Below are positions 12,680 through 44,689 of a stretch of 64,000 nucleotides of DNA, piece after piece (positions within the stretch are counted from its first letter, which is position 1; each line of letters starts with the position of its first letter). The notes under the pieces were generated by a model, which was given only the letters and a program-made list of their open reading frames with translations, searched no databases and had not been told where the DNA came from. This stretch comes from Oscillospiraceae bacterium (GTDB lineage: Bacteria; Bacillota; Clostridia; Oscillospirales; Acutalibacteraceae): assembly GCA_015066105.1 (NCBI GenBank), contig SVOY01000002.1:1-64000 (forward strand), read 5' to 3'. The position numbers were made by a program, and so were the translations under genes.

Positions 12680-12857
12680 AGCCGCTTCTCCTCTTATCTT
12701 TTTCAAGAGGCGCATCAATAATTTTCAGCAGTAATTCATCGACATCTTCTGTCGGTTTTTCTTCTTCAAGAAGCATATTGCGAAATTCGTTAAAGCCGTT
12801 AATCAAAAGGTTGTGTTCAAAGTCGTCCAGAGCTATTACACGCTTTCGTGACCTCAT
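12666..12857 (-). CDS. Small conserved protein preceding VirD4
   Basis: 63 aa, charged, starting MRSRKRVIALDDFEHNLL and containing KPTEDVDELLLKIIDAP. From memory, very similar short proteins precede the coupling-protein gene in Tn1549-type elements, but I know of no function. It is soluble and probably helical. AGGGAG lies about 8 bases before the ATG, and its last codons overlap the virD4 start (GGCTATGAAGC), so the pair is translationally coupled. Confidence 0.75.
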   Translation of the reverse strand: MRSRKRVIALDDFEHNLLINGFNEFRNMLLEEEKPTEDVDELLLKIIDAPLEKDKRRSGYEAR

Positions 12858-18460: not shown

Positions 18461-18711
18461 TTAACACAACTCCTTAAATTAAAATTAGGGCAAATGATAA
18501 GCTCTGCCCTGAAACTTTGTTTGCATTTGTTGTTGCACTTTTTACATTGTTCGTTGTATTCTATTATACATTTTTGATTTTGAAAGAACTTCCATTCTTT
18601 CTTTTTGCGTTCATTCAAGTTCTTAACTAAAGAAACGATTGAAGATAAAAGATGCGAGGAAAAGCTTCTTATTTTATCTTGCATAGCTTCGTTCTTTTCT
18701 TTCAGGTTCAT
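18457..18711 (-). CDS. Small Lys- and Cys-rich hypothetical protein
   Basis: 84 aa, basic, helical at the N-terminus. It has a cysteine cluster QCKKCNNKCKQ at about 55-65 and two more Cys near the C-terminus, so it may bind zinc. A GAGG motif lies about 9 bases before the ATG. The start overlaps the last ~12 codons of the giant helicase gene, and the stop overlaps the DUF3848 start. I do not recognise the family. Confidence 0.6.
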   Translation of the reverse strand: MNLKEKNEAMQDKIRSFSSHLLSSIVSLVKNLNERKKKEWKFFQNQKCIIEYNEQCKKCNNKCKQSFRAELIICPNFNLRSCVK

Positions 18712-30188: not shown

Positions 30189-33100
30189 TTATCTTCCGAT
30201 GTACCAATCGTCATACGCTGAATCCGTCAGGCGTACTGCATCAGCCTTGGAAGCTCTTTTAATCATACCCGATGGTGTCCAGAAATCTCTCTGTTCAATA
30301 CATACCGTATAATCTCCGTCGGGATACCATAAGGGTGTGAAATGAACATAACCGTAAGTGCCGTTTTCTCTGAAACGCCACTTATCGTTGTTAAGCTCAA
30401 GTGTTCTGAAATTGCCCTCTGTACTTTCATAACCGAATTCGGGGAATAAAGCCATAGCATACTGTGAGGTTGTGTAGCTGTCCGTATTGGGAATGTTGTA
30501 GCCTACAACGGAGCTTACGGAGTTTGTAAAGGAAAGAGCAAGGCCGTAGCCTGACTTCATATTCCACATTCCACTTACCTTTTTAGCCGTTTCACCCGTT
30601 GCAGGAGTTATATACGGCGTTGTATTGGCTATGCCTATGGCATATTCGTACTTTTTGAATGTGCCGTCTTCATATTTCCATAACCACCAAGAAGCCGCAC
30701 CGCTTGTGGTTGCAGGCAAGGTCGGTGTACTGAAACCGCTCGGCTTCTTCTTTTCAAACTGTGTGTCGGGTGTTTCCGAGATTATATACGGTACAGTAGA
30801 GTTATACATATTCTTTAAGTTGTATGATTTACCGTCATCAATAATCTCGCCCGTAATCTTTACCTGTCCGCCATTAATACCCGTAGGCACCTTCCACTTA
30901 AAGTAAAGAAGGTTTTTATCACTGCCCGGCACAACAACATTTTCTATTGTTTCAGCATGAAGAAGTGTGCTGTTTCTGTAAACCTTGAATCGAACATCTA
31001 CCTCATCAGAGGGAGTATAATTATCCGTATAGCCGTTTTTAAGCCAGAACGAAGAAACAACCTCTGTCTGTTCACGGTATGCGGCATTAGGTGTAATGGG
31101 TACAAGAGTAAGCGGATGATTAACCTTACAAGTAAGGGTTAATTCATTGTTTGTTCCGTCTGTTTCGTACTCTGTATTACCTATACCCATACCTTCCTGA
31201 TATACACCGCCCCAAATAGTGAATGTTCTCTTATTCGGCACGGTAAACTCTTTTCCCCATAAACCTGCATAACTCTTTGCAGGAATTGAATATACTGCAT
31301 TTCCAATTTTTTCACGGTCATCGTTATAGTTTTCAACAAAAACCTTTGCATTGGTATTGTTGTAGTAAATATATCTGACCTTTACCTGCTGTCCTGCTTC
31401 GAGCTTTAAGGGGTCAAGTTCCTTGTTTGTGTTCTTATCATAAAGTTTGATTTCATTGAGCTGTAAATCACAAGGTGCAACAGGAAGCTCCATCCAAGAT
31501 GATTCCTCTGTATGTTCCTTATCATTCATCCACCAAGTAATGAGGTTAAATCTCAACTTGTTCTGTGATGTCAAAGGAACGGTATATGTGTTAAGAGAGC
31601 TGTTAAGGGTCTGAACACCAGATTTTGAAAGTATAATCTTATTCTTTGCTACATCATAACCGTCATTTGCTGTGTATGCACTTATCCATTTTGATCCGTT
31701 ATAGTAGTACAATGAGCCTCTTACATACTCAAGAGGATTCCATGTATTACCACCCTTGAACTTATATGCCAACTTTACATGCTGACCGGAATAAAGAGTA
31801 CCGCTTGAGCCATCCATACCGTTGTAGGCTGTGATAACACCTTCGTAGCCTCTTGCTTCAACCTTGTATCTGTAAACAACAGGTTTTACGGGAATATAGA
31901 AGGTCTTGACTGCACCGCTTTTAAGAACATTACCCGAAGCGTCAATCCAATCGGTTTTAGCTTCAATTTCATAATATCCTATGCTTTCGGGAACAGTCTT
32001 GTAATCTCCCGTAAACTGTACCGGGAAATATTGCGATGCGGAGCTTGAACTGCTGAGTGTAACATCTCTTGTAGTCCAAGAGCCTCCTTTATACCTTACA
32101 TACTGTCTTGCTTTGTAGCTCTCTATTTCAGCCGGGAAATGTATGTTAAACCAAATGGTATCACCCATAACGGGATAGTTTGTTTTGTAAACATAATCAT
32201 CAAATACATTGCCCCTTGTGTAGCCGAAAAGAGTTGTTTTATCGCTCTTTGTACCTTCATATACACTGCACTGTTCAACGAGAAGAACGGGGTCATACTG
32301 CCACTGTGCATAAAGAGTAACTGTTGCACCGTCGGTAGTTGTCAGATTTTTAACTGACTGCTTATCCTTATAGGTTGTACCGCTTCCGTCAGCCTTTGTG
32401 TTCCAATTTTTGAACTTATATGATGTTCTCGTAAAGCCGTTTCCAGTAAGATTTTTGGCAACATCATAGGTCATACTCATTGAAGCAGTCGAGCCGCCAG
32501 TTGAACTGTTACCGTGGAACTTGATTGTGTAAGTTATCGGTGTCCACTGAGCATAAAGGCTTATTGTACCGCCGTCTGTTGAGGTCAGATTTTTAACTGA
32601 CTGCTTATTGGTATATGCCGTTCCGCTTCCGTCTGACTTTGTGTTCCATCCGGTAAACTTATATCCTGTCTTTACGAAACCGTTGGCAGTTAAATTCTGT
32701 GCTTTATCATAGGTCATTGTCATAGATGCGGTTGAGCCGCTTGTACTGCCGTTTCCATAGAAGTTAATAGTGTAGGTTATAGGCGACCAACGGGCATAGA
32801 GATAAACAGTTGCACCGTTTGTGGTAGTCAGGTTTTTAACTGACTGCTTATTGGAATATGAGGTGCCGCTGTTATCAGACTTTGTGTTCCAATGGGAAAA
32901 CTTGTATCCCGTCCTTACATAGCCGTTGGCATTAAGGTTTTTCGCCACATCAAACTTCATGTTCATACTCGAAGTGGTACCGCTTGTATATCCGTTACCG
33001 TCAAAGGCTATGATATATGAATTGGTGTCCCACTGAGCATAAAGAGTAACAGTACCGCCGTTTGTGGTAGTCAGATTTTTAACTGACTGCTTGTTATAAT

Positions 33101-34664
33101 AGCTTGTACCGCTTCCGTCAGCCTTTGTGTTCCACCCTGTAAAGTGATAACCTGATTTAACAAAACCGTTTGCAGTAAGGGTTTTGGCTACATCGTAGGT
33201 CATTGACATTGATGCCGTTGAGCCGCTTGTACTGCCGTTGCCGTTAAACTTGATTGTATAGGTATTCGGTTTCCATTGTGCATATAGCGTCATGCTCACA
33301 TTGCCCGTCTTGATACCTGAGTTGAGGTCTGTGGGCTTAATGGTATTATCACTTTGGCTGAAGGTTGTACCGCCCGATGAGGTTGTACCCCAAGTGGAGA
33401 ATGTATATCCTGTTTTATACAGACCGAAGGTGCCGGCATTTGTAAGTCCGTTATCTTTGGTTTTATTGTAAGTCCAAGTCTGAATATACTTTGTGCTGTC
33501 AGCTTCTTTATACACTACCTTGGATGAAAGATAGTATGTGTCGGAGCTGATTGCACCGCCGTTGGCATTAAAGCTGACCTTCAACTTGTACGGAGACCAC
33601 TGTGCATAAAGATTTACAGTTGCACCGTTTGTCTTTGTGAGGTTTTTGACCGACTGCTTATTACTGTATGATGTACCGCTTCCGTCAGCCTTTGTGTTCC
33701 ATCCGCTGAAGGAGTGTCCTGTTTTAGTGAAAGCATTTGCTGTAAGATTTTTAGCCGTGCCGTAGGACATTTTCATTGAGGACATTGTACCGCTTGTGCT
33801 TCCGTTACCGTTGAACTTAATGGTATAGGTAATATTCTGTGTTTCGTTATATGCAATACCTACGCCATAGCCTTTAGTAAGGATTGTGTTGAAGGTAGCT
33901 CTTGATGAGCTTCCTATCTTTGATGCAGCAGTCCATAACCCCTGACCGTCGGGAGTATATAACTTGTTAGGCCATATACGGTTAGTGTACGGAGCAATAA
34001 ATCCCCAAGTTGAGGATGTTCCGTTACTTGAGCCGCCGTCAGAGCTTCCGCCTAAAACACTTCGTCCGCAATAAGCCATTTCGGTTACGGTCAATGCCTG
34101 ATATTCACCCGCAAGGCAAACATCAAAAAGAGGCTCGATAATAACCTTATCACCGTAAACCATATTGGAAACGCTGCCCACACCGAGCTTTGAAAGCACC
34201 TGATTGATGTTTGCTTCATAGCTCTGCCATGTTTCAACACCACTCGGATTGGGAAGGTCTTTTACAAAGCTTATATTCGCTTCCTTGTAGCAGTTAGTGG
34301 TGTTATAGGTAGTTGAAAGTTTTGCGTTTCTGTTAGAAATGACGCCCAGCTTATTATACTTCTTTGAAAACTTCGCAGAGGTTGAATAAGCGTGGTCGCC
34401 ATTTGAGGTATCTCTGTAAACATCAATTACCTTTGTTACCTTCATATTACCGTCCGCATCAACGGCAGAAAAACGGTAGCCGACAACACAGTTTGAGTCT
34501 TCGGTGTCACGGATAACATAACCCGTGTTACTGCCATTTACGGCATCAATACTGCCGCCTGCACTGTCACCGTCCCAAGAAAGGGCAAAGGCTGAAATGG
34601 GAATTGATGAAAAGAGAGTGAGAATTACAAGAAAAACAGATAATATTCTTTTAATAACTATCAT
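30189..34664 (-). CDS. Large secreted surface protein with InlB-type B-repeats
   Basis: About 1491 aa from MIVIKRILSVFLVILTL at 34664; an upstream in-frame ATG at 34694 falls inside a terminator hairpin and is rejected. Signal peptide at about 1-28 ending ISAFA. A non-repeat domain of ~250 residues precedes six ~80-residue Listeria-Bacteroides (InlB B/Flg_new) repeats at ~277-790, e.g. FTGWNTKADGSGTSY, KQSVKNLTTTNG, LYAQW. About 700 residues of beta-sandwich-like sequence follow. No LPXTG motif or C-terminal anchor is seen, so it may be retained through the pilus or by wall binding. It lies downstream of the Tad genes in the same direction, fitting an adhesin role (inference). Confidence 0.85.
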   Translation of the reverse strand: MIVIKRILSVFLVILTLFSSIPISAFALSWDGDSAGGSIDAVNGSNTGYVIRDTEDSNCVVGYRFSAVDADGNMKVTKVIDVYRDTSNGDHAYSTSAKFSKKYNKLGVISNRNAKLSTTYNTTNCYKEANISFVKDLPNPSGVETWQSYEANINQVLSKLGVGSVSNMVYGDKVIIEPLFDVCLAGEYQALTVTEMAYCGRSVLGGSSDGGSSNGTSSTWGFIAPYTNRIWPNKLYTPDGQGLWTAASKIGSSSRATFNTILTKGYGVGIAYNETQNITYTIKFNGNGSTSGTMSSMKMSYGTAKNLTANAFTKTGHSFSGWNTKADGSGTSYSNKQSVKNLTKTNGATVNLYAQWSPYKLKVSFNANGGAISSDTYYLSSKVVYKEADSTKYIQTWTYNKTKDNGLTNAGTFGLYKTGYTFSTWGTTSSGGTTFSQSDNTIKPTDLNSGIKTGNVSMTLYAQWKPNTYTIKFNGNGSTSGSTASMSMTYDVAKTLTANGFVKSGYHFTGWNTKADGSGTSYYNKQSVKNLTTTNGGTVTLYAQWDTNSYIIAFDGNGYTSGTTSSMNMKFDVAKNLNANGYVRTGYKFSHWNTKSDNSGTSYSNKQSVKNLTTTNGATVYLYARWSPITYTINFYGNGSTSGSTASMTMTYDKAQNLTANGFVKTGYKFTGWNTKSDGSGTAYTNKQSVKNLTSTDGGTISLYAQWTPITYTIKFHGNSSTGGSTASMSMTYDVAKNLTGNGFTRTSYKFKNWNTKADGSGTTYKDKQSVKNLTTTDGATVTLYAQWQYDPVLLVEQCSVYEGTKSDKTTLFGYTRGNVFDDYVYKTNYPVMGDTIWFNIHFPAEIESYKARQYVRYKGGSWTTRDVTLSSSSSASQYFPVQFTGDYKTVPESIGYYEIEAKTDWIDASGNVLKSGAVKTFYIPVKPVVYRYKVEARGYEGVITAYNGMDGSSGTLYSGQHVKLAYKFKGGNTWNPLEYVRGSLYYYNGSKWISAYTANDGYDVAKNKIILSKSGVQTLNSSLNTYTVPLTSQNKLRFNLITWWMNDKEHTEESSWMELPVAPCDLQLNEIKLYDKNTNKELDPLKLEAGQQVKVRYIYYNNTNAKVFVENYNDDREKIGNAVYSIPAKSYAGLWGKEFTVPNKRTFTIWGGVYQEGMGIGNTEYETDGTNNELTLTCKVNHPLTLVPITPNAAYREQTEVVSSFWLKNGYTDNYTPSDEVDVRFKVYRNSTLLHAETIENVVVPGSDKNLLYFKWKVPTGINGGQVKITGEIIDDGKSYNLKNMYNSTVPYIISETPDTQFEKKKPSGFSTPTLPATTSGAASWWLWKYEDGTFKKYEYAIGIANTTPYITPATGETAKKVSGMWNMKSGYGLALSFTNSVSSVVGYNIPNTDSYTTSQYAMALFPEFGYESTEGNFRTLELNNDKWRFRENGTYGYVHFTPLWYPDGDYTVCIEQRDFWTPSGMIKRASKADAVRLTDSAYDDWYIGR
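32295..33834 (-). repeat. Six tandem InlB-type B-repeat units within the surface-protein gene
   Basis: Five units are close copies of ~80 codons, each with SG-x-NTK-x-D-x-SGT and KQSVKNLT and ending LYA(Q/R)W. The second unit is longer and divergent. DNA identity between the regular units is high, so recombination could change copy number. Confidence 0.85.
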
Positions 34665-34677
34665 CCTTTCCGATAAA

Positions 34678-34707
34678 AAGTAAAAGCCCGACATTAAGCC
34701 GAGCTTT
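34678..34707 (-). terminator. Terminator between the Cys-rich membrane protein and the surface protein
   Basis: Minus-strand stem 34707-34698 with 34692-34683 (10 bp including G-T pairs, TTAAT loop), followed by a TTACTTTTT-type tract. It implies separate or attenuated transcription of the repeat surface-protein gene. Confidence 0.7.
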
Positions 34708-34723: not shown

Positions 34724-35470
34724 TTAATGTGTGTGGCAGGTTCTTGCTTTAACTGTCTTACCGCAATCGGGACATTTAGTATCAACGGTAAATCTTACGC
34801 AAGTACCCTTTGAGCCGTCACCGATTTTCTTGGTACAATCGTCACAATATTTATTCGGGTCTTTCTTTTCTGAATACTTGGTACACTTTGAAATATCATA
34901 GCAAGCATTACCCCATTCATCAATAGCATAGAAGCTCTTACAGGAATGAGAGCCGCAAAGTGAGCACCCTTTCTTTTCAAGACTTACAATAAATGAATGT
35001 GTTTCTTTGCTTTCACAGTGATGACCTGACTTGCCGCAAGAGTATTCCTTAACGCTGTCATTATCTGAAGCAGGCGAGCCTTCCTCCGTTGTAGGAGCTT
35101 TCTGTGTTGTTACAGGCTTGGGATTTTTCTGCTTCTCTGTTGTCTGCGGCTTTGTGGTTGAGGGTGCCTTGGTTGTTGTAGCGGGTTCTGTTACTGCTTC
35201 GTCAATGGAGAGAATGTTTTTATCATCGTTTTCAATTTCCGGCACATTCTCCTCGGTTGTGGCTTCGTCTGTAATATCCTCAAGAATGAGGTTTACATCC
35301 GTTGTTTCCTCACTTACCGTTGTTTCCGGGAATGTTGTTTCATCAGCCTTTCTGTCGCTGACACCCTTGACAACAATACCTACGATTATGAGACAAACAA
35401 TGATTATTGCCGTTACAAGACCTGCAACAATCTTTTTGTAATTATCTTCCTTAACTGCTAAAACTGTCAT
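34724..35470 (-). CDS. Membrane-anchored Thr/Glu-rich protein with Cys-rich zinc-ribbon-like ectodomain
   Basis: 248 aa. One membrane segment lies at about 14-36 (VAGLVTAIIIVCLIIVGIVV), then a ~100-residue Thr/Glu/Pro linker, then a C-terminal domain (~145-248) with at least 14 Cys and several His in CxxC pairs (CSLCGSHSC, YCDDCTKK, KCPDCGKTVKARTC). The Cys pairs suggest outside zinc knuckles or disulfides. It lies between the pseudopilin genes and the surface protein, so a pilus- or adhesin-associated role is plausible but unproven. AGGAGG lies 8 bases before the ATG. I do not recognise the family. Confidence 0.7.
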   Translation of the reverse strand: MTVLAVKEDNYKKIVAGLVTAIIIVCLIIVGIVVKGVSDRKADETTFPETTVSEETTDVNLILEDITDEATTEENVPEIENDDKNILSIDEAVTEPATTTKAPSTTKPQTTEKQKNPKPVTTQKAPTTEEGSPASDNDSVKEYSCGKSGHHCESKETHSFIVSLEKKGCSLCGSHSCKSFYAIDEWGNACYDISKCTKYSEKKDPNKYCDDCTKKIGDGSKGTCVRFTVDTKCPDCGKTVKARTCHTH

Positions 35471-35489
35471 TTTGAATTACCTCCTGAAT

Positions 35490-35969
35490 TTAAAATTTTT
35501 CACTTAATACTGATACAATTTCTATGGGTACATTTGCAGTATCAATTTTCTGACCTGCGAAATATATCGGTACGGAAATTGTGTAGTGAATTACAATCTC
35601 AAGCTCATTTTCCTGTCTGAAACTCATCTTAGGATATGTCATTGAGTATTTGAGATTTCCTTCACTGTCATAACTATACAGCCGTGAAGCTGTTTCGTCT
35701 AATGTGCAAAAGTCACACAGAGCATCTGTGAACTCCTGCGGATTAACACTTTCGGTGTAGTCGTTACCTTGCTTGATACTGTCATATATCCTTGTGGCAT
35801 TCTGTGTTACAAAGCTGTCAAGTACAACTTTACTGTTTTCTCTTGAAGTATCAATAAGGGAGACAGCAGAAGCATAGACAAATATACCCGAAAATATCAT
35901 TACGATTACAAGAATAAGGACACACACGGGTACATAACTTTCACCCTTTTTACTTTTGAGTATCTGCAT
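35490..35969 (-). CDS. TadE-like pseudopilin
   Basis: 159 aa. A short basic leader (MQILKSKKG) is followed by GESYVP at residues 9-14 and one N-terminal membrane segment (~14-34), then an ectodomain of ~120 residues rich in beta strands. This layout is that of TadE/TadF or DUF4320-type minor pilins. The G/A-E-x-Y-V motif before the hydrophobic segment also occurs in the neighbouring pseudopilin and in all four pilin-like genes, suggesting cleavage by the same prepilin peptidase. AGGTG precedes the ATG. Confidence 0.7.
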   Translation of the reverse strand: MQILKSKKGESYVPVCVLILVIVMIFSGIFVYASAVSLIDTSRENSKVVLDSFVTQNATRIYDSIKQGNDYTESVNPQEFTDALCDFCTLDETASRLYSYDSEGNLKYSMTYPKMSFRQENELEIVIHYTISVPIYFAGQKIDTANVPIEIVSVLSEKF

Positions 35970-35978
35970 TTATTTCAC

Positions 35979-36389
35979 CTACTTCCAATACTTTTCAGAA
36001 ATACCCGACCTTGTTGTTCTTACAGTTACGGGTATCTTAAAAGCACCGACACCTCTTACATAGGTATGCACAGACACAGTGACTGTCATTTTGTCACCAA
36101 GCTGTACTCTCTCATAGGTCGAGTTGTAGTATTCTTCAGCGGATGCAACTACATCAAAGTCAAAAAAAGAGCTTCTGAGTTCTTCGCATCTTTCGTCAAA
36201 CTCTTCACCGAAGGAGCCTTCCGAGGTGGCAGTTTCAATAAGAAATCCGCTAACTGTATCCAAATCCTGACGTAGCATAAAAAAGGTGTAAATATTTAAT
36301 GTTACAACAAGCACCATCATAAGTGCAATTATGCCAACAGCAATATCAATGTAGCCTTCAGCCTTACGGTTTGAAAGAATCTTTTTCAT
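35979..36389 (-). CDS. TadE-like/DUF4320 pseudopilin
   Basis: 136 aa from the ATG at 36389; AAGGAGG lies 8 bases before it, whereas the open frame extends back to 36458 inside tadC. The leader MKKILSNRK precedes AEGYID at 10-15 and a membrane segment at about 15-37 (AVGIIALMMVLVVTLNIYTF). The ectodomain ends in beta-rich sequence (KMTVTVSVHTYVRGVGAFK). DUF4320-type proteins accompany Tad-like genes in clostridial elements (from memory). A minor pilin or assembly initiator role is inferred. Confidence 0.72.
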   Translation of the reverse strand: MKKILSNRKAEGYIDIAVGIIALMMVLVVTLNIYTFFMLRQDLDTVSGFLIETATSEGSFGEEFDERCEELRSSFFDFDVVASAEEYYNSTYERVQLGDKMTVTVSVHTYVRGVGAFKIPVTVRTTRSGISEKYWK

Positions 36390-36402
36390 ATTCATTACCT
36401 CC

Positions 36403-37272
36403 TTAACCGAAAAGAACACCGACAGAGCCCATAATCTGTGCGATAATAACCACAACATAAATGAGCATAAAGCAGAAAAGAAGGCTCATAGAAAGCTTCT
36501 TTACTTTCCTTGGTATCTTCTGTGCTTCAAGTCTTAATCTCTGTCTGTGGATGTCTGAAAACTTCATAGCAAGGTTTGACCAATAAATAGGAGCACTGTC
36601 ACCTCGTATCATACCAATAAAGCCACGGCAAACATCACTCATCATACTTGAGCCGACTCTTGCTTCAAGTCTTGTGATTGCCGCTTCCTGATTACCCGAA
36701 TTCATATCGGCTATTGTAATATCAAGCTCGTGCTTGAGTTCAGGCCCGGCATTGCGGGAATATTCCGTAAGAATAGATAAAAGGCTTCTTTCGTGCTTCA
36801 AAGTCTTTTCAACATTGGCTACAAGCCTCGGTAATTCGTATTCAATCTTCGCTCTTTTCTCCTTTATCTTTCCTCCTACGCTTTTCATATTTATTCTGTA
36901 AAGAACAAAAGCAAGGAATATGACAACAGGACAAAGTATCGGGAAGATGAAATACAAGGGCACTGCAAACACACCGATAATAAGTGCCTTTACAATGGCA
37001 TTTGCCTTAAACATTTCGGGTGTAATATTCATCTGAGCAGTACGAAGGTCTGTTTCAAGCTCTATCCTTTTAAACTCATTCATAGGGATATGCTTTGCTA
37101 TTGCACCCGCAAAGCCGCCGAGCCATACATCAATACTGCTTGTCTTTTCCTGATGCTGTTTGGCAAGGTTTGTGATAGCCTTCGATGTTCTCATATACGG
37201 TACTTTAAAAGCATCTGCGAGGATAAAATAAAAGGCGATACCGAAAAGTACACCAACAATAATCTTAATCAT
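36403..37272 (-). CDS. tadC: TadC-like pilus assembly membrane protein (T2SF domain)
   Basis: 289 aa. Membrane segments lie at ~4-24, ~88-125 and ~265-287, with a cytoplasmic four-helix T2SF region between (ELPRLVANVEKTLKHERSLL, GFIGMIRGDSAPIYWSNLAM). The size and position after tadB fit the TadC half of the TadB/TadC inner-membrane platform that couples the TadA motor to pilin extrusion. AAGGAGG lies 9 bases before the ATG. Confidence 0.85.
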   Translation of the reverse strand: MIKIIVGVLFGIAFYFILADAFKVPYMRTSKAITNLAKQHQEKTSSIDVWLGGFAGAIAKHIPMNEFKRIELETDLRTAQMNITPEMFKANAIVKALIIGVFAVPLYFIFPILCPVVIFLAFVLYRINMKSVGGKIKEKRAKIEYELPRLVANVEKTLKHERSLLSILTEYSRNAGPELKHELDITIADMNSGNQEAAITRLEARVGSSMMSDVCRGFIGMIRGDSAPIYWSNLAMKFSDIHRQRLRLEAQKIPRKVKKLSMSLLFCFMLIYVVVIIAQIMGSVGVLFG

Positions 37273-37286
37273 TTCTTTTATCCTCC

Positions 37287-38210
37287 TTATGCCTTGTATT
37301 CAACGGGTTTTGTGAATTTGAGAAGGAACATATATGTCACGATAATCACCGCACCGCATACTCCTAATACAATCTTACCCGGTGTTTCGTATATGAGTGT
37401 GTGAAACCAGTCCTTGTTAAGCACATACAAAAGAGGTATATTACCCACAACAAGACCTACCATTGTGTAATACTCTGTTCTTACCGCAGCCATCATAGTT
37501 GAAAGCTCACTGTTTACCACTCTTACATCTGTAAGTTTTGCAACAATGGGATGAAGTGTATCTACAAGTGCTCTGTCGTCCTGACAGCGGATAAGAGCGT
37601 CGCACCACTCACGGAAAATATCGTCATCAACCTTTTCCTTAAGATTACGAAGGGCCTGCTTTACACTTGATGAAATTGCAACAGCATCACCGATGAAAGC
37701 ATTAAAACTAGCTCTTAAGGGCGGTTTGATGTAATCAAGGTTTTCCCTTACTGCAAGAATAATATCCTCATTTCTGATATATGAAGTAGTAATTGTTGAA
37801 AGTGTTGTTTCCAAATCAGTTTTAATGTGTTTTTCATACTGTGAAAGACTGTTTCTGACATAGATGAAAGGTATAAGGGCAAAGGCTACCGATAAGGCAG
37901 GAAGAAGGAATATGTTGTCAATGAGAACTGCAACTACCGCACCTGCCGCAAAAAGAACGAGTGAAGCACAGCAGACAAGAGCAAATTTATTCTCCTGTCC
38001 CATAGCTGCCAACGCCGTCTGTGTATATGCAAGTTTAGAGCCGAGGCTCTTTTTCTTTTTACCTGCTCTCATATTTCTTGCTTTTTCTCTTAATGTTACT
38101 TTAGGCGTTGTAAGCCTCATAAGGTCCTCGGTAATCTGCTGCGGAGTCAGATTAAGAAAACAAACTATTGCTACAATGAGCAATAAGGAAGAAATCATAG
38201 GCATAATCAC
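37287..38210 (-). CDS. tadB: TadB-like pilus assembly membrane protein (T2SF domain)
   Basis: 307 aa. Hydrophobic segments at ~3-20, ~78-115, ~255-272 and ~281-302 flank a T2SF-type helical region (LETTLSTITTSYIRNEDIIL, DDIFREWCDALIRCQDDRAL). The start is a GTG at 38210 overlapping the tadA stop as GTGA, with GGGAG about 10 bases upstream; an ATG two codons on is an alternative. It pairs with TadC to form the platform on which TadA acts. Confidence 0.85.
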   Translation of the reverse strand: MIMPMISSLLLIVAIVCFLNLTPQQITEDLMRLTTPKVTLREKARNMRAGKKKKSLGSKLAYTQTALAAMGQENKFALVCCASLVLFAAGAVVAVLIDNIFLLPALSVAFALIPFIYVRNSLSQYEKHIKTDLETTLSTITTSYIRNEDIILAVRENLDYIKPPLRASFNAFIGDAVAISSSVKQALRNLKEKVDDDIFREWCDALIRCQDDRALVDTLHPIVAKLTDVRVVNSELSTMMAAVRTEYYTMVGLVVGNIPLLYVLNKDWFHTLIYETPGKIVLGVCGAVIIVTYMFLLKFTKPVEYKA

Positions 38211-39523
38211 GAGTAATCAGCTCCCTTCTCCAGAAATTTTGAAAGAACATCCTGCGGAACACCGAACTGCATCAGCTTCTTTTTAAGGCTGTCGGACATT
38301 ATCTCCGGCTGTTCAAAGTGTCCCTCTGTAATGTTTTTGCCCTTTTCGATAACATTCTTTGTAATGTTGAAACGGAAAAGTGTGTGGTATGCTCTTTCAC
38401 CGTTTGGAAGTATCTCACACTCGGTAATATCCATTATCTTTCTTTCGTTGTTCTCAAGCTTATGGGTATATACGACAATGGGAAAGGCCTGACCTGCCTG
38501 CATAAGAGAGGTCTTGAAATCAATGGGAAATCTCTTCTGACAAAGAAGCGCTATTCTCATATGTGCCGCATCTGCCGCTGAAGCATGTACCGTTGAAACA
38601 ACGGTGTGTCCCGTAAGACTTGCTTCTACTGCCGAATAACACTCAACATCTCGCATCTCACCGACACAAACAATATCAGGGTTAAAACGAAGGGAAGCTA
38701 CAACAAGATCTTCCTGAGTAATATCATAGGATTCATTATCCGAAGGTCTTGAAAGCGTGTGAACTACATTGTTCACTACCTTGCCTTTCTTATCCTTTCT
38801 CACAAGAGCCAACTCACGGGAGCCGCTTTCAATGGTGAAAACTCTTTTTCCGTCGGGAATGGTAGTAAGAAGTGCATTGAGAAGTGTGGTTTTACCCGAA
38901 GATGTGGCACCTGCCACTACTACAGAAACACCGTATCTCATACAGGTACAAAGAAAATCAATCATCTTTTCTGTTGCATTGCCTGACTTTATAATCTGTG
39001 TTCTGTTTACTCTTGACGGGTGAAGAAGTCGGATAGAAACACTCACACCGATTTCATCATCAACAACGGGAGCTTTAAGTGCCGTAATTCTTGTATTATT
39101 CGGCAAATGCCCCTGCGACATGGGTGAAGCATTGTCAATAATCATACCCGAATGATGAAGCAGTCTTTTGACAATATCCGTAGCATGTGTAGGAGAATAA
39201 AAATGCTCCTTTACCTTTTCAATCTTGCCGTTTGTGTAGGTTATGGCAACATCGTTCCAAGCATTTATATTTATCTCTTCAACATTATCTCTGCCAAGAA
39301 AAGGTGTTAGTATGGAATACTCTGCCATTTCGGAATAAATCTTGTCACAGAGCTTTTCATCCGTCATACCTTCAACGGAATACGCCGTGTCACGGAGATA
39401 CTTTTCAATGTATGATTTAAGCTGTGAGAGCTTTGTTGTATCGGTAAGTGTTGCAGCATATTTTGATGAGATATGCTCCTGAACCATAGATAAAAGAGTA
39501 ACAAAATCAATTTGACGATTCAT
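38207..39523 (-). CDS. tadA: TadA/CpaF-type secretion ATPase
   Basis: 438 aa. An N-terminal domain of ~190 residues is followed by a type II/IV secretion RecA-like ATPase with Walker A GATSSGKTT at 205-213, an Asp-box-type stretch, and Walker B NPDIVCVGEMRD near 281-292, then the His box (TGHTVVSTVHA). The length and motifs fit CpaF/TadA, the motor of Tad (Flp) pili, rather than a VirB11 protein, because TadB, TadC, CpaB and CpaE homologues are adjacent. AAAGGAG lies about 10 bases upstream. Confidence 0.92.
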   Translation of the reverse strand: MNRQIDFVTLLSMVQEHISSKYAATLTDTTKLSQLKSYIEKYLRDTAYSVEGMTDEKLCDKIYSEMAEYSILTPFLGRDNVEEININAWNDVAITYTNGKIEKVKEHFYSPTHATDIVKRLLHHSGMIIDNASPMSQGHLPNNTRITALKAPVVDDEIGVSVSIRLLHPSRVNRTQIIKSGNATEKMIDFLCTCMRYGVSVVVAGATSSGKTTLLNALLTTIPDGKRVFTIESGSRELALVRKDKKGKVVNNVVHTLSRPSDNESYDITQEDLVVASLRFNPDIVCVGEMRDVECYSAVEASLTGHTVVSTVHASAADAAHMRIALLCQKRFPIDFKTSLMQAGQAFPIVVYTHKLENNERKIMDITECEILPNGERAYHTLFRFNITKNVIEKGKNITEGHFEQPEIMSDSLKKKLMQFGVPQDVLSKFLEKGADYS

Positions 39524-39536
39524 TTATATCACTCCT

Positions 39537-40265
39537 TTAAATAACTCTGTTCACAAGAGCCGAAAGCCTTTTCTTATACTCTTTTGCATTGAGCCTTTCA
39601 TAAAGACTTCCGTCAAGAAGCTGCTGTTTCACCTGTCGGCAATAAGGAAGAACACAAGCGACATTTTTAAGATGCGTACAGACATCCTCCAAAGGTATAT
39701 ACAGCTCATTCTCTGTTATATTTATGACCTTTAAGCTCTGCTCTGTTCCCGATGTGATAATCTTATCTCCGTAAGAATTGAGCCAAGTCATACTTTTAAG
39801 GTCAGGTGTAATAACCTGAATAATATGGTCTGCTCTGGCAAGTGCCTGTTTTGAGATAAGGTCTGTATCCTCGTTTGTACAGTCAACAAACACATAACCG
39901 TCAGTTGCCGCAAGAACATCAAGAAGATTTTTTACCTTCTCTTTTGTCGGTGTCGGGAAACTATATTTACTGTCACCGGACATAAAACCGAGACAACCGA
40001 AGTTTTTCATATTCTTAACCGTTACAAGGTTTTCAAGGAGCAGGTCACTTGAAATATCTGTTGAATCAAGCACCGCACTCAATGAATAAAGCGAATCGGG
40101 TTTGTAATTCGGAAAAAGCATACCGATTGTAGGAACAGTAGTATCGGGTGAAATAAAGGTAACGGAGCAATCAGAAGTTGAAAGGTAAACCTCCTGTGCG
40201 AGTTTAAAAGCAACAGTTGTTTTACCGCTTCCCGGTGCTCCGCATACAGCAATTATTTTAGCCAT
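39537..40265 (-). CDS. CpaE/TadZ-like ATPase
   Basis: 242 aa from the ATG at 40265, which overlaps the cpaB stop by 8 bases; the frame extends upstream inside cpaB. P-loop CGAPGSGKTTVAFKLA at the N-terminus, then SDCSVTFISPDTTVPT, and an Asp-containing strand YVFVDCTNEDTDL near 135. This matches MinD/ParA-like proteins without the usual lysine-rich deviant Walker signature. CpaE/TadZ proteins place the Tad pilus at a cell site. A partner role for the ParB upstream is possible but less likely because it lies within the Tad gene order. Confidence 0.75.
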   Translation of the reverse strand: MAKIIAVCGAPGSGKTTVAFKLAQEVYLSTSDCSVTFISPDTTVPTIGMLFPNYKPDSLYSLSAVLDSTDISSDLLLENLVTVKNMKNFGCLGFMSGDSKYSFPTPTKEKVKNLLDVLAATDGYVFVDCTNEDTDLISKQALARADHIIQVITPDLKSMTWLNSYGDKIITSGTEQSLKVINITENELYIPLEDVCTHLKNVACVLPYCRQVKQQLLDGSLYERLNAKEYKKRLSALVNRVI

Positions 40266-41001
40266 TGTTGTCAGCACCTTCCTTGTCAGTTTTCGTTTCA
40301 AGGAACTTATCCTGCTTATCAAGGAATTTCTGTGCCTTTTCTGTATCACCTCTGAACACAAGAGCTACGTGCATTGAAGCGTTTTCCTCATAGTTTGCAA
40401 GAACTGTAGCCTGCTTTGAGGAAACGAGAAGTGTAATTGTTGAGGGAAGCTCAAAGCTGCCGTCCTCATTTTCCACAACCTCTGTTTCATCAACACCGCC
40501 TGATGTGGTAGTGGTGATTACCTTAACATATTTAAGCTCTGACGGAACCTTCGTTTCACCTTCCTTATCGGTTACATAAACACTTACAATGTCACCGTTT
40601 TCGAGCTTACCCGAAAGACCGCCCGCAAAGGTATTGATAGTTACACTCATAGCAACCTTATCTCCGTTAAGAGAGCTGAAAACATTTGCTACGGAGTTTT
40701 CATCATCTGTAATCTTTATTTCTGTTGCAAGGTCGCCTTTAAACAAATCAGCCTTTGCATATTTACCTACTACGGCATCCTTTGTTTTGAGTGCCTTTTC
40801 GGGAACGCTGTTTTTTGAGAGCTTCACAATTTCAATATCAGTTTCAGCAATCTTACTGCCGTGTGAAATATCCTTTGTGAAGCGGATTACATCGGTTTTC
40901 TGTTCGGATATTCTGTTGATAAGAGGTGAAACAAGAAATGTCACCGCAACAGCTAAAACGATACAGACAATACCGATTAAGGTTCTGTTTTTCATTTTCA
41001 T
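40258..41001 (-). CDS. cpaB: CpaB/RcpC-like pilus assembly protein (SAF domain)
   Basis: 247 aa. N-terminal membrane anchor (~6-27, LIGIVCIVLAVAVTFLVSPL), then an SAF domain (RFTKDISHGSKIAETDIEIV, VGKYAKADLFKGDLATEIKI) and a CpaB C-terminal domain (KVAMSVTINTFAGGLSGKLE, DIVSVYVTDKEGE). CpaB/RcpC proteins work with the outer-membrane secretin in Gram-negatives. In monoderms they persist without a secretin, as here, and may act at the wall. AAGGAGG lies 9 bases before the ATG. Confidence 0.85.
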   Translation of the reverse strand: MKMKNRTLIGIVCIVLAVAVTFLVSPLINRISEQKTDVIRFTKDISHGSKIAETDIEIVKLSKNSVPEKALKTKDAVVGKYAKADLFKGDLATEIKITDDENSVANVFSSLNGDKVAMSVTINTFAGGLSGKLENGDIVSVYVTDKEGETKVPSELKYVKVITTTTSGGVDETEVVENEDGSFELPSTITLLVSSKQATVLANYEENASMHVALVFRGDTEKAQKFLDKQDKFLETKTDKEGADNNG

Positions 41002-41003
41002 TT

Positions 41004-41690
41004 TTAAAAACCTCCTTGTAAGAAAAATCCTGCCATATATCCTATTGAAAGATAGGGAACAAAAGGAAATGCAAGGTCATCGTTTTTATCTTTACCTCTG
41101 TACTTAATGAGGGTATGAGCAATAGCAAGACACAGACCAACTATGAGTCCGAAGGTTGCGCTCCATAAGCCTAAAACTAATGCACACGCACCCGTTAATT
41201 TTATATCAGCACCGCCTAAACCGCCGTTTGTTGCTACGGCGAATATGAGTAATACACCAAAGAGAACAAGGGCAGATAAGACCATTTTGGGAATGTCTGA
41301 TACATCTGCACCGATAAATGAAGTGATTACTACCATAACCGAAGCTGCATCATTCAATGTTCTTGTGTGGTTGTCTGAAAGTGATGAGTAAAGAAGAATA
41401 AGGTAGAACACAGTTCCTTTTATAAGCATATCCGACAAACCGAACATAAGGAGCATTGCAAGAGATACGCCTGCCGTAATGATATGGCAGACAATCATTT
41501 CCTTCTTGTTTTCCTTTTTGTATTCGGGTGCTTTCATAACAGCTAATCTCATCACCAGATGGATAAGTGTCAGATATGCAAGAGAAGCAATAAAGTTAAA
41601 CAAAGTTTCTTTATCCGAGTAAGCTACACCCGGTAAATTCCCTAAAGGGAGAATAGGATACATTGGGTTAATTATGCTTGTTTTTATCAT
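41004..41690 (-). CDS. Prepilin peptidase, CpaA/TadV type (A24 family)
   Basis: 228 aa with about six membrane segments. The two catalytic aspartates of the A24 family are visible: D106 in SLSDNHTRTLND, equivalent to the D-x-x-x-R-x-I-P-N motif, and D162 in GGADIKL, equivalent to GxGDxK with the second Gly replaced by Ala. It lacks the N-terminal methylase domain, as is usual for TadV/CpaA. It should process the four pilin-like proteins and two pseudopilins encoded in the same block. AAAGGA lies about 8 bases upstream. Confidence 0.85.
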   Translation of the reverse strand: MIKTSIINPMYPILPLGNLPGVAYSDKETLFNFIASLAYLTLIHLVMRLAVMKAPEYKKENKKEMIVCHIITAGVSLAMLLMFGLSDMLIKGTVFYLILLYSSLSDNHTRTLNDAASVMVVITSFIGADVSDIPKMVLSALVLFGVLLIFAVATNGGLGGADIKLTGACALVLGLWSATFGLIVGLCLAIAHTLIKYRGKDKNDDLAFPFVPYLSIGYMAGFFLQGGF

Positions 41691-41707
41691 TGTTTTTCAT
41701 TCCTTTG

Positions 41708-41747
41708 AAAAAAAGTGGCGGAGCAGCCACCTTTAAACTACTCCGCC
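41708..41747 (-). terminator. Terminator/attenuator after the pilin cluster
   Basis: Minus-strand stem 41747-41738 with 41726-41717 (10 bp, one G-T), followed by about seven T. It lies between the fourth pilin gene and the peptidase gene, so pilin mRNA should be more abundant than assembly-gene mRNA, a common pilin strategy. Confidence 0.75.
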
Positions 41748-41765
41748 TGAAAATTTTAAGTACCG

Positions 41766-42032
41766 TTAGCCTGCGTAGTTAAACAGTTCCTGAATCTTCT
41801 GTGTAACTGTGGGCATAATCGTTGTGTTAAAGAGAGCGTAAAGACCGCCGAGAAGAAGAGCACCGACAACAACTGCGATAAGGATTTTTACACCTGTATC
41901 GACGTAAGCCTCGGCACGGATACCGACGAGGAGCTTGATGACCTTTGCCTTGATGACAGCCTCTGTACTCTTTGCGGCTGACTTTGCCTTTGATGAAACA
42001 CCTTTGAGAAATGACTTGATTTTCTTAAACAT
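41766..42032 (-). CDS. Pilin-like protein, copy 4 (DUF6133 type)
   Basis: 88 aa. Amphipathic basic leader MFKKIKSFLKGVSSKAKSAA to ~39, motif AEAYVDTG at 40-47, one membrane segment ~48-69 (VKILIAVVVGALLLGGLYAL), short tail ending LFNYAG. The layout (leader, acidic residue and Tyr at the start of the hydrophobic helix) parallels Flp pilins. It is nearly identical to copy 3 from residue 20 to 85. AGGAGG lies before the ATG. Confidence 0.8.
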   Translation of the reverse strand: MFKKIKSFLKGVSSKAKSAAKSTEAVIKAKVIKLLVGIRAEAYVDTGVKILIAVVVGALLLGGLYALFNTTIMPTVTQKIQELFNYAG

Positions 42033-42060
42033 ATTAAATTACCTCCTGAAAAATATTTTT

Positions 42061-42327
42061 TTAAGCTGTGTAGTTAAAGAGTTCCTGAATCTTCTGCGTT
42101 ACCGTGGGCATAATCGTTGTGTTGAACAGAGCGTAGAGACCGCCGAGAAGAAGAGCACCGACAACAACTGCGATAAGGATTTTCACACCTGTATCGACAT
42201 AAGCCTCGGCACGAATGCCGACGAGGAGCTTGATAACCTTCGCCTTAATGACAGCCTCTGTGCTTTTAGCGGCTGCCTTTGTCTTTGAACAAAGACCTTT
42301 GAAAAATGACTTGATTTTCTTAAACAT
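42061..42327 (-). CDS. Pilin-like protein, copy 3 (DUF6133 type)
   Basis: 88 aa. Same plan as its neighbours: leader MFKKIKSFFKGLCSKTKAAA, AEAYVDTG at 40-47, then VKILIAVVVGALLLGGLYAL. It ends LFNYTA rather than LFNYAG and has a Cys at residue 13. The near-identity with copy 4 across the core shows a recent duplication. Its own AGGAGG ribosome site precedes the ATG. Confidence 0.8.
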   Translation of the reverse strand: MFKKIKSFFKGLCSKTKAAAKSTEAVIKAKVIKLLVGIRAEAYVDTGVKILIAVVVGALLLGGLYALFNTTIMPTVTQKIQELFNYTA

Positions 42328-42352
42328 ATTGAATTACCTCCTAAAAATTTAT

Positions 42353-42619
42353 TTAACCTGCGTAGTTGAACAGCTCACCGATTCTTGTTTCGACGGCGGG
42401 CATAATGGTTGCATTAAACAGACCGTAGAGAAGGGTGAGAAGAAGAGCACCGACAACAACTGCGATAAGGATTTTCACGCCTGTATCGACATAAGCCTCG
42501 GCACGGATACCGATGAGAAGCTTGATAACCTTTGCCTTGATCTTGGCTTCGGTATTTTCATAGGCTGACTTTGCTTTTGAGCAAACGCCCTTTACGAATG
42601 ACTTGATTTTCTTAAACAT
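42353..42619 (-). CDS. Pilin-like protein, copy 2 (DUF6133 type)
   Basis: 88 aa. Leader MFKKIKSFVKGVCSKAKSAY, AEAYVDTG at 40-47, hydrophobic helix ending LLLTLLYGLF and tail IMPAVETRIGELFNYAG. It groups with copy 1 in the tail (VETR) and in SAYENTEA, while copies 3 and 4 group together, so the cluster looks like two pairs. AGGAGG precedes the ATG. Confidence 0.8.
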   Translation of the reverse strand: MFKKIKSFVKGVCSKAKSAYENTEAKIKAKVIKLLIGIRAEAYVDTGVKILIAVVVGALLLTLLYGLFNATIMPAVETRIGELFNYAG

Positions 42620-42642
42620 ATCGAATTACCTCCTTGAATTTT

Positions 42643-42909
42643 TTAACCGGCGTAGTTGAACAGACCTTCAACCCTTGTTTCAACCGTGGGCATGATGACT
42701 GTGTTGAACAGACCGTAGATAAGTGTGAGAACGAGAGCACCGACAACAACTGCGATAAGAATTTTCACACCTGTATCGACATAGGCTTCTGCACGGGTAC
42801 CGGCAACAAGTCTGATGACCTTTGCCTTGATGACGGCTTCTGTGTTTTCATAGGCTGACTTTGCCTTTGATGAAACACCTTTGAAAAATGACTTGATTTT
42901 CTTAAACAT
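42643..42909 (-). CDS. Pilin-like protein, copy 1 (DUF6133 type)
   Basis: 88 aa, first of the four in transcription order. Leader MFKKIKSFFKGVSSKAKSAY, with VAGTRAEAYVDTG instead of VGIRAEAYVDTG before the hydrophobic helix, then LVLTLIYGLF. It is the most divergent around residues 33-38. It lies 20 bases after spoVG and has an AGGAGG ribosome site. Confidence 0.8.
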   Translation of the reverse strand: MFKKIKSFFKGVSSKAKSAYENTEAVIKAKVIRLVAGTRAEAYVDTGVKILIAVVVGALVLTLIYGLFNTVIMPTVETRVEGLFNYAG

Positions 42910-42929: not shown

Positions 42930-43211
42930 TTAATTGAATTTTTCATCTGTTGCGATTTCGTAAGCGGCAAGTACCGCATCGGAAATCTGTTTGCGGGTTT
43001 CTGTTGTGATGGGATGAGCAATGTCACTGCGGCGAAGTTCACCTTCGCTGGACTTCCATTTCTTGTAGGGCATGGAAACGAGCTTGTTGCCGTCCTTTTC
43101 GATAACTGCGACACCGTGAATGACCATACTGCCGTCAATCACAACGTCGGCAAAAGCCTTTACAGGTCTTTCGCCTTTAATGATTTTCTTGATTTCTACT
43201 TTGATGTTCAT
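42930..43211 (-). CDS. spoVG: SpoVG family protein
   Basis: 93 aa from the ATG at 43211 (MNIKVEIKKIIKGERPVKAF); the longer frame to 43253 lacks a ribosome site. The core ADVVIDGSMVIHGVAVIEKD, KWKSSEGELRRSDIAHPITT and TRKQISDAVLAAYE is the SpoVG signature, and the length fits the family. SpoVG proteins are small nucleic-acid-binding regulators. Here it is element-borne, between parB and the pilin genes, and may regulate the operon post-transcriptionally (inference). AAAGGA lies about 10 bases upstream. Confidence 0.9.
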   Translation of the reverse strand: MNIKVEIKKIIKGERPVKAFADVVIDGSMVIHGVAVIEKDGNKLVSMPYKKWKSSEGELRRSDIAHPITTETRKQISDAVLAAYEIATDEKFN

Positions 43212-43257
43212 AAAAAAATTATCCTTTCTTTTTTGAAATAAAAATAAGAGCAAAAGA

Positions 43258-44133
43258 TTACCTTGAACGGTTTTCTTTTACTCTTTCTAAATATCGGTTA
43301 TAGAATTCGATAGCCTTGATAACAAAATCACAGTATTTCTCTTTGGGGACGCCTTTTGGGATAGCGCCTTCAATGCGCTTATCTCTGAAAGGTGATTTTT
43401 CTCTCTGATTTGGTTTCGGCTCTTCCATAATATTTTCTACAACCTCTGTTGTGAGATTACCTTCCTGATATGCCTTTCGCATACGGATGGTTTGGTCGTG
43501 AGACGGGGTTGCTTCGTTGTACTCCATAGCTTCCAAAAGGTCATATTGTATTTCTTCGGGTAGGTATGATATTTCAACCGCAGGTCGCATTGCTACTTTA
43601 CCTTCGTCAACAAGGTCAAGCATTTCGGGTACAAGATAATTTAAGCGGATATATCTTTTAATCTGTGTTTCACTTTCTTTTACCTCAGCAGCCAATTCAG
43701 TATTCGAGCGTGTGCCTGTTAAATTCGGTCCCGTCGGGTCCGAATTATTCTTTGTTGGTCTTCCTGCTTGTCGCCTTAAAGCATCAAGCCTCATTTTATA
43801 CGCCCTTGCTTTTTCCGAGGGTAAAACCGTTTCTCTTTGAAGATTACTGTCCACCATTGATAATATCGCCTCATCTCTTGACATTTCTTTTACTCTTGCG
43901 GGTATTTTATCATACCCTGCAATTTCAAAAGCTCTTTTTCGTCTGTGCCCTGACACCATTTCATACATTCCGTCTTCAACAGGTCTTATGATAACCGGCT
44001 GTATCAAGCCTCTTTCCTTGATGCTTTCAACAAGCTCATCCATACTTTCATCGTCTTTAACGAGATAGGGATGATGAAGAAAATCACGGATTTGTGTTAA
44101 TGGCACATCAGTAAGCATTTCATTCTCTGCCAT
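43258..44133 (-). CDS. parB: ParB/RepB/Spo0J family partition protein
   Basis: 291 aa. The ParB N-terminal nuclease-like domain spans ~8-100 and includes SMDELVESIKERGLIQPVII and the GHRRKRAFE box; a central helix-turn-helix at ~140-200 includes ELAAEVKESETQIKRYIRLN; a charged C-terminal region follows. It binds a parS-like site and may act in element partition or as a regulator. No ParA lies beside it; the only deviant P-loop protein here is the CpaE-like gene. GGAGG lies 8 bases before the ATG, inside the 29-codon frame upstream. Confidence 0.9.
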   Translation of the reverse strand: MAENEMLTDVPLTQIRDFLHHPYLVKDDESMDELVESIKERGLIQPVIIRPVEDGMYEMVSGHRRKRAFEIAGYDKIPARVKEMSRDEAILSMVDSNLQRETVLPSEKARAYKMRLDALRRQAGRPTKNNSDPTGPNLTGTRSNTELAAEVKESETQIKRYIRLNYLVPEMLDLVDEGKVAMRPAVEISYLPEEIQYDLLEAMEYNEATPSHDQTIRMRKAYQEGNLTTEVVENIMEEPKPNQREKSPFRDKRIEGAIPKGVPKEKYCDFVIKAIEFYNRYLERVKENRSR

Positions 44134-44615: not shown

Positions 44616-44689
44616 TGGCTGCGGAACTAGGATTCGAACCCAGACAAACAGAGTCAGAGTCTGCTGTGCTACCCTTACACAATTCCGCA
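44616..44689 (-). tRNA. tRNA-Gln (anticodon CTG)
   Basis: 74 bases with CCA encoded. Acceptor stem TGCGGAA/TTCCGCA, D arm GTGTAAGGGTAGCAC, anticodon stem GCAGA/TCTGT around loop CTCTGAC giving anticodon CTG, T arm CTGGG-TTCGAAT-CCTAG, discriminator G. It reads CAG codons. The U1-A72 pair is typical of tRNA-Gln. Its 3' end faces the conjugative element, a common att location, but no duplicate of the 3' end was found at the other side of the element. Confidence 0.95.

Follow-up and report, generated by a model that had tools for sequence, protein, structure and literature searches.

Pili on conjugative elements and Tad systems of monoderm bacteria

The closest described parallels to the system studied here include pili carried by conjugative elements of Gram-negative bacteria. 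TP114 encodes, on a conjugative element, a pilus of the type IV pilus superfamily, the IncI type IVb thin pilus, and R64 is presumably another IncI type IVb thin pilus system. PAPI-1, an integrated element of Pseudomonas aeruginosa, also bears a pilus cluster, ten genes of the type IVb class, that is reported to be used for transfer; its pilus recognizes recipient lipopolysaccharide, which serves as the receptor (PMC5297154). Here, we describe a Tad-like (type IVc-like) pilus gene set in a mobile element of gut Clostridia. It lies in a 64-kb stretch of DNA, referred to below as the window, which is the first 64 kb of a 159-kb Clostridia contig (SVOY01000002.1). Judged from its sequence, the pilus gene set appears nearly complete, and a pilus of this kind is probably an inherited part of the conjugation machine in a family of integrative and conjugative elements (ICEs) and plasmids of Clostridia.

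The likeness to R64, TP114, and PAPI-1 would be one of working and not of membership; the motor in the window is of the CpaF type. TP114 and R64 have Gram-negative hosts, type IVb pilins, and a shufflon adhesin, whereas the window has a Tad-type motor, a Clostridia host, and tandem short pilins; PAPI-1 differs in its diderm host and type IVb class. In Gram-positive bacteria, tad genes and conjugation-related genes occur together on single plasmids of Cutibacterium acnes, and the authors of that report considered the functional link between them unclear (PMC5696575). By their description, those plasmids differ in being linear, in belonging to Actinobacteria, and in having components of two transfer types. 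The Tad (Tfpc) systems of Bifidobacterium breve and Micrococcus luteus resemble the present one in a secretin-free core of pilin, minor pilins, peptidase, two platform proteins (putative here), and one ATPase, and the B. breve system also has TadZ, of which the window has a putative counterpart (PMC6916266). The same review lists RcpC among the parts missing in monoderms. Compared with canonical monoderm Tad systems, the system of the window stands apart by its CpaB, its own peptidase, its DUF6133 and DUF4320 pilins with another leader, and its location on a conjugative element.

Tad genes on plasmids are already known as such, and Denise et al. ranked Tad highest among the systems they compared in frequency on plasmids (PMC6668835). 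Here, Tad-like parts in Gram-positive hosts would make up a pilus with the working of the TP114 and PAPI-1 conjugative type IV pili. A 2025 review states that Gram-positive systems encode no conjugative pili, and a legend in it grants Patescibacteria the potential for them. Our literature search, covering few subscription papers and no bioRxiv preprints, returned no description of this Clostridia family among the matches listed. We put it at just under an even chance that widespread Clostridia elements are hybrids in which a type IV secretion system (T4SS) has a built-in Tad-like pilus on several backbones, that is, that they have Gram-positive conjugative pili, with the CpaF-type motor possibly filling the place of VirB11. 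If so, the rule that Gram-positive conjugative pili do not exist would also fail in Clostridia, which are common gut bacteria, and donor-recipient contact in Clostridia would gain a simple explanation.

Gene content of the Tad-like locus

The Tad set occupies positions 34724 to 42909 on the minus strand, which it shares with the conjugation genes located at 3.8 to 16 kb; the larger genes from 44133 down to 3785 are on that strand. These coordinates, the strand, and the gene order agree with a first-pass annotation of the window. The set begins with four tandem pilin-like genes encoding 88 amino acids each. The first (42643..42909; Pfam DUF6133, E 1e-20) and the fourth (41766..42032; DUF6133, E 3e-26) were recognized by Pfam, and the second and third (42353..42619 and 42061..42327) were identified from the alignment of the four copies, in which the other three are 77 to 92% identical to the first. 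They are followed by an A24 prepilin peptidase in the CpaA/TadV role (41004..41690; Pfam, E 3e-9), with aspartates D106, D114, and D162 invariant in all 21 aligned proteins. CpaB/RcpC (40258..41001) matched Pfam RcpC with an E value of 7e-12 and TIGR03177 with 74.4 bits against a cut-off of 71. The motor ATPase TadA/CpaF (38207..39523) matched T2SSE (E 2e-30), and its best relative of solved structure was CpaF (E 8e-30, against 3e-16 for the best VirB11-like chain). The prepilin peptidase, CpaB/RcpC, and TadA/CpaF-type motor of Tad machinery are all present, as the first-pass annotation had proposed along with the four pilin-like genes.

Other members of the set were identified on different grounds. 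A P-loop ATPase resembling TadZ/CpaE (39537..40361) was assigned from its translation and from weak matches of the FlhF/BcsQ/MinD type; its reading frame opens at a TTG codon, and the translation suggests that the true start is probably a later ATG near 40265. The TadB-like platform protein (37287..38210) was assigned from its place in the locus, its conservation, and the match of its profile to that of TadC (E 5e-5, probability 68%). For the TadC-like platform protein (36403..37272), T2SSF matches were found in 4 of the 18 members of its alignment (best E 2e-4), and the best rows for its structure model were PilC, SpoIIIAB, OutF, and EpsF, a result that the tool itself qualifies with a caution on helical bundles. 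Neither the window TadB nor the window TadC gave a Pfam match above noise. Two pseudopilin-like genes follow, one matching DUF4320 (35979..36458; E 4e-24) and a second (35490..35969) recognized from an alignment of 16 relatives and from an N-terminal G-E-x-Y followed by a hydrophobic stretch. They had been called TadE-like; they matched DUF4320 or nothing convincing and not TadE. The last gene of the set encodes a Cys-rich protein with an N-terminal hydrophobic segment (34724..35470), seen in the translation and with relatives in the equivalent position. Immediately downstream is a repeat surface protein of 1,501 amino acids (30189..34694) with four Flg_new stretches (E 1e-36), a candidate adhesin. 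Reading frames are open throughout the Tad genes of the window. The first-pass description of a whole monoderm Tad set was nearly right; the identification of TadB and TadZ is weak, and the pilin leader is of an unusual type.

A shared and unusual pilin leader

An N-terminal site, [A/G]-E-x-Y before a hydrophobic stretch, is common to the three pilin-like families. Counted over distinct stop-to-stop stretches, E-x-Y occurs in 108 of 130 DUF6133 stretches and is preceded by A or G in 101 of these, and A or G precedes E-x-Y in 46 of 59 DUF4320 stretches and 21 of 43 stretches of the second pseudopilin. Cleavage by the peptidase at this site is a prediction. In classical Flp pilins, the site reads G/XXXXEY (cited in PMC5696575). 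The pattern G....E followed by Y, F, L, I, V, or A, searched for anywhere, was present in 3 of 130 DUF6133, 26 of 59 DUF4320, and 18 of 43 second-pseudopilin stretches, so the contrast in leader is clear for the major pilins only. DUF6133 is not a classical Flp major pilin with a G|XXXXEY leader, and because of this unusual leader we call the system Tad-like, a variant.

The conjugative element of the window

The transfer genes, all on the minus strand, comprise a MobA/VirD2-like relaxase (14477..15853; Pfam, E 9e-43), a VirD4 of the CD1115 family (10850..12718; NCBIfam, 539.5 bits against a cut-off of 250), a small TrbC/VirB2-like membrane protein (10513..10863; subthreshold TrbC match, E 8e-4) that had earlier been named Maff2, a VirB6/TrbL-like protein (9300..10142; subthreshold TrbL_2 match, E 0.04), PrgI (8892..9278; Pfam, E 3e-27), a VirB4 of the CD1110 family (6608..8959; NCBIfam, 955 bits against a cut-off of 325), and an M23 cell wall peptidase (3785..5692; Pfam, E 2e-33). 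The element thus has the VirB4, VirD4, relaxase, PrgI, and cell wall hydrolase of a CD1110/CD1115-type ICE, a module that we take to be Tn1549-like. The first-pass label of a Tn1549-like operon was fair for these transfer genes, with VirB4 and VirD4 over their cut-offs; the contig does not reach the integrase end.

The right border of the element is the 3′ end of a tRNA-Gln(CTG) gene (44616..44689, minus strand; predicted by ARAGORN). Two contigs from other genomes are homologous to the window as far as positions 44640/44641, within the 3′ part of the tRNA gene, and no further; L053 matches at 97% along 6.8 kb and L054 at 94% along 12 kb. At the border, L053 has a tRNA-Gln(TTG) gene and L054 a tRNA-Ser(GGA) gene, and the three sequences resemble one another past the 3′ end of the tRNA. 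Since the shared sequence runs inside three tRNA 3′ ends, the same element, in closely similar copies, occupies three different tRNA genes, a pattern of site-specific insertion expected of an ICE. The Tad set is located just inside this right end. No recombinase family match was found among the window open reading frames scanned by Pfam, and the contig begins at window position 1, with the left end of the element beyond it. Compared with the window, L054 joins far-apart parts of the element at 16941-18121, which may reflect internal deletions or misassembly. A close TadA (at least 480 bits) was present in 5 of 33 other genomes searched of the window's genus, and the host genome itself (85% complete) had no other PF00437 match over the cut-off.

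Linkage of the TadA family to transfer genes

We searched 391 genomes of the class with a TadA profile and assigned matches scoring at least 190 bits, a cut-off of our own choosing, to the family (clade) of the window TadA. The broken tadA pieces of G093:C54 (196 and 195 bits) were above it and were left out; G252 (182 bits) was placed in the tree and kept outside the co-location count. Seventy genomes were searched for the CD1110 VirB4 and CD1115 VirD4, namely, 47 with clade matches and 23 chosen from canonical matches, and a relaxase search covered 24 genomes. The first-pass annotation had proposed a co-occurrence check with relaxase and Maff2 inside 50 kb; the markers used here were VirB4 and VirD4, with a distance of 60 kb. 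The 47 canonical loci used for comparison are those among the matches listed for the 70 genomes; the room on the contig is known for 20 of them, of which 11 have 35 kb on both sides.

VirB4 and/or VirD4 lay within 60 kb of TadA at 30 of 53 family loci, against 1 of the 47 canonical TadAs (Fisher p 5e-10; some loci are closely related and therefore not independent in this test). When the count was restricted to loci flanked by 35 kb of contig in each direction, 16 of 18 family loci and 1 of 11 canonical loci were linked. At all 30 co-located family loci, the transfer genes were on the same strand as the Tad genes. The first-pass annotation had suggested that its view would fail if the clade lay mostly at sites without conjugation genes; such a distribution was not found.

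In the TadA tree, the family (50 rows) split from 21 canonical Clostridia TadAs with a support of 96/75 and in 94% of 200 bootstrap trees, rising to 100/100 without the outlier G252. The first-pass annotation had asked whether element-borne TadAs form one clade, and the outcome was positive, with moderate support at the base. The tree was made under LG+G4 with no mixture model, and the program warned of long branches meeting. It excludes G033, the second copy from G244, and the copy from G082; L184 (G187:C18) was omitted as short, and the six plasmids described below are outside it. Two contigs of an "Alphaproteobacteria" metagenome-assembled genome (MAG) (L077 and L087, from QKJH01) carry the Clostridia element at 72 to 73% TadA identity and are probably misbinned. 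This TadA also occurs at 37 to 48% identity on gut contigs filed as "Bacteriophage sp." (H21 to H24), which may be misfiled conjugative elements.

Gene order, interleaving, and coinheritance

Conservation was examined in the best 80 of 211 related loci. Among the genes detected, the order A24-CpaB-TadZ-TadA-TadB-TadC-DUF4320-pseudopilin was kept in all 80 loci, which places the Tad set beyond chance. Genes were detected by single-sequence tblastn, so absences partly reflect sensitivity. In loci with room on the contig, TadB (66/66) and TadC (58/58) were always found, followed by DUF6133 (56/58), CpaB (62/67), A24 (50/59), the second pseudopilin (41/52), DUF4320 (40/54), and TadZ (46/73). A match to the repeat protein lay downstream of TadA in 39 of 44 such loci.

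Genome G289 has the order of the window over ∼42 kb, except for three recombinase genes in the interval between M23 and VirB4. These are tandem tyrosine recombinase genes (L133:12886-16181), presumably like the set named "recombinase in trio." Other relatives are linked more tightly than the window. In G363, a single strand carries relaxase-VirD4-DUF6133-TrbL-A24-CpaB-TadZ-TadA-TadB-TadC-DUF4320-pseudopilin-adhesin-like-VirB4, where TrbL matches PF19597 (E 9e-116) and VirB4 a TraG P-loop family (E 6e-13). The arrangement in G140 is similar, with the Tad genes flanked by VirD4/TrbL and VirB4. Directly after VirB4 in G363 is a C39-peptidase ABC exporter of the bacteriocin export kind (L138:15875-18091); ABC transporter matches also occur on the G187, G129, and G426 stretches, and such genes are common.

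The distances of TadA and VirD4 are correlated (Mantel r 0.47, p 1e-4, 25 pairs; 0.45 without G043), and one VirD4 clade (the window, G289, G054, G107, G159, G179, and G397) goes with two far-apart TadA lineages. Together, these results point to long coinheritance of TadA and VirD4 with some module swapping, so that the linkage to transfer genes appears both long lasting and repeated. The coinheritance proposed in the first-pass annotation is well supported.

Related gene sets on isolate plasmids

Among 72,556 plasmid records, six had a TadA at 36 to 45% identity and 97 to 98% coverage. All six had VirD4 and/or VirB4 matches, and for four of them VirD4-type or relaxase genes are also named in the annotation of the record itself. 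On pTPHSE1 of Terrisporobacter petrolearius (48.9 kb), the Tad genes continue on one strand into VirD4 and then on to a MobP2 relaxase, and pESS10701c of Clostridioides sp. has a similar layout; CP141730 combines a MobP3 relaxase with TrbL. By annotation and gene content, the Tad set therefore accompanies at least three transfer backbones, CD1110/CD1115, MobP3/TrbL, and MobP2/pLS20-like. The plasmid relatives come from soil, horse feces, and insect larva isolates. A paper that names pTPHSE1 states that isolate-specific plasmids of this sort encoded hypothetical proteins only (PMC11253131). Although relaxase, VirD4, or VirB4 is present on all six (L233, L234, L235, L236, L238, and L239) as a gene or a match, PLSDB types them as nonmobilizable, so systems of this kind may be escaping notice. 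Because complete isolate plasmids such as pTPHSE1 carry the set, its role is directly testable.

Two Thermoanaerobacterium plasmids with 28% TadA identity were not counted with the six, and one of them had no VirD4 or VirB4 match in the 45-kb stretch examined. Plasmid pMU3262 (L237; Thermoanaerobacterium, 111 kb), with a TadA at 28%, has two Tad operons together with FtsK-type and "replication-relaxation" genes.

Proposed function and alternative explanations

With the motor, platform, peptidase, CpaB, and pilins all present, a filament should be built. We propose that the element's own A24 peptidase would cut the DUF6133 major pilins and the pseudopilins at the shared [A/G]|E-x-Y site, that TadA would power TadB and TadC to polymerize the pilus, and that CpaB would lead it across the envelope. 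Contact with the recipient would then be made by the pilus, by the large repeat protein whose gene follows the Tad genes, or by both. In Caulobacter, one CpaF motor both extends and retracts the pilus (PMC11300603), and the single CpaF-type motor here may also retract it and draw the cells together. The T4SS (VirD4, VirB4, VirB6, PrgI, M23 hydrolase, and relaxase) would subsequently move the DNA. By analogy with TP114 and PAPI-1, donor-recipient contact would be the simplest reading of the role of the pilus, and both the element's own peptidase and the absence of any other PF00437 match over the cut-off in the host genome (85% complete) were counted in favor of this explanation. From the arrangement of the genes, a role in mating is likely. 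The first-pass annotation had proposed a dedicated contact pilus on the same element; its observation was confirmed, with a linkage stronger than first stated, and its interpretation is partly supported.

Several findings weigh against this assignment. At 23 of the 53 family loci, no VirB4 or VirD4 lay within 60 kb; for 20 of these, a contig end is less than 20 kb away, and short contigs hide neighbors. The two misses with room on the contig are G426 and G082. G426 has 38 to 40 kb on either side of TadA (80 kb in total) without transfer genes, and since its tadA frame is open (432 amino acids, the stop at codon 431/433 of the match being the natural end), it is a real exception. G082 also lacks VirB4 and VirD4; its Tad set is beside an M23 gene, a shortened helicase/methylase, and ParB-like genes, and it looks like a reduced element. 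G103, with no VirB4, VirD4, or relaxase in the 48 kb examined, is another real exception. In all, eight unlinked loci, in stretches of 20 to 80 kb, had no VirB4, VirD4, or relaxase. The downstream side, where VirB4 is found in relatives, ends within 17 kb of TadA in G112:C17, G142, G187:C31, G129, and G309, and in G180 the helicase and toprim genes of the element continue as far as the end of the contig. Furthermore, 129 genomes of the class have a CD1115 VirD4 (E 1e-70 or better), and clade TadA occurs in 26 of them and not in 103. The TadA family goes with transfer genes, but most transfer genes of this type go without Tad. The CD1115-type T4SS therefore does not need the pilus, and we rejected a general need of this T4SS for Tad. 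The window TadA also scored slightly higher with the NCBIfam VirB11 model (138 bits) than with the TadA family model (133 bits), both below the cut-off. Finally, selection for gut adhesion could produce the same linkage to a mobile element.

This last point leads to the chief rival, that the pilus is colonization cargo, helping the host to stick to the gut, feed particles, or biofilm as an ICE fitness trait with no part in transfer. We give this perhaps a chance of one in four or a little less. Tad pili are known colonization factors (PMC6916266), judged by their titles, many of the 80 named loci belong to gut or rumen MAGs, and the repeat protein that usually follows the Tad genes would suit such a role, as would the clade loci that lack transfer genes in the stretch examined and the many genomes with the T4SS marker and no clade TadA. 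Cargo genes usually sit outside the transfer operon. In G363 and G140, however, the Tad set is flanked by VirD4/TrbL and VirB4, unlike the usual position of cargo, and the common strand in the 30 co-located loci, the association with several transfer backbones, and the sources of the plasmid relatives also speak against it. The interleaving with VirD4 and VirB4 and the several backbones favor a role in mating over cargo, without amounting to proof.

A second alternative, which we consider improbable, is that the Tad motor or a short pseudopilus is an accessory of the DNA channel, for example, with TadA in place of the VirB11 missing from Gram-positive systems or with a pilus that clears a way through the wall. 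TadA is a member of the CpaF/VirB11 superfamily, the VirB11 model scored it as given above, and the Tad genes are interleaved with T4SS genes. However, platform proteins, a peptidase, CpaB, and tandem pilins are the parts of a pilus and go beyond what a stand-in for VirB11 would require, and the best solved relative of TadA is CpaF and not VirB11. On these two grounds, TadA as a plain VirB11 of the T4SS was rejected.

Least probable is an old, functionless Tad locus caught in the island: the stop in mid-gene in G187:C18 (codon 231/431), the fragmented tadA of G093:C54, and the reduced appearance of G082 fit decay, but conservation already disfavors it, given the open frames of the window, the invariant peptidase aspartates, the gene order kept in 80 of 80 loci, and three copies at different tRNA genes, the last of which also led us to reject a chromosomal Tad locus caught by chance.

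Neighboring genes of the element

Upstream of the pilin-like genes, on the minus strand, are a SpoVG-like gene (42930..43253; Pfam, E 2e-21) and a ParB-like gene (43258..44133; Pfam ParB_N, E 5e-20); in loci with room, SpoVG was found upstream of the Tad set in 34 of 52 and ParB in 22 of 43. Between the repeat protein and the relaxase, the element encodes a SNF2 helicase/methylase protein of 3,057 amino acids (18674..27847, minus strand; Pfam), which also has a MutS domain I match (E 2e-29) and partial PADLOC matches to DrmD, BrxH, and type II methylases. An AIM24-family gene (5755-6537) is located within the transfer region, with VirB4 on one side and the M23 hydrolase on the other. To the left of the transfer genes, the interval 734-3718 contains a plus-strand sigma-70-like gene, a 101-amino-acid actin-like (ALP_N) piece, and a pRiA4 ORF-3-like gene.

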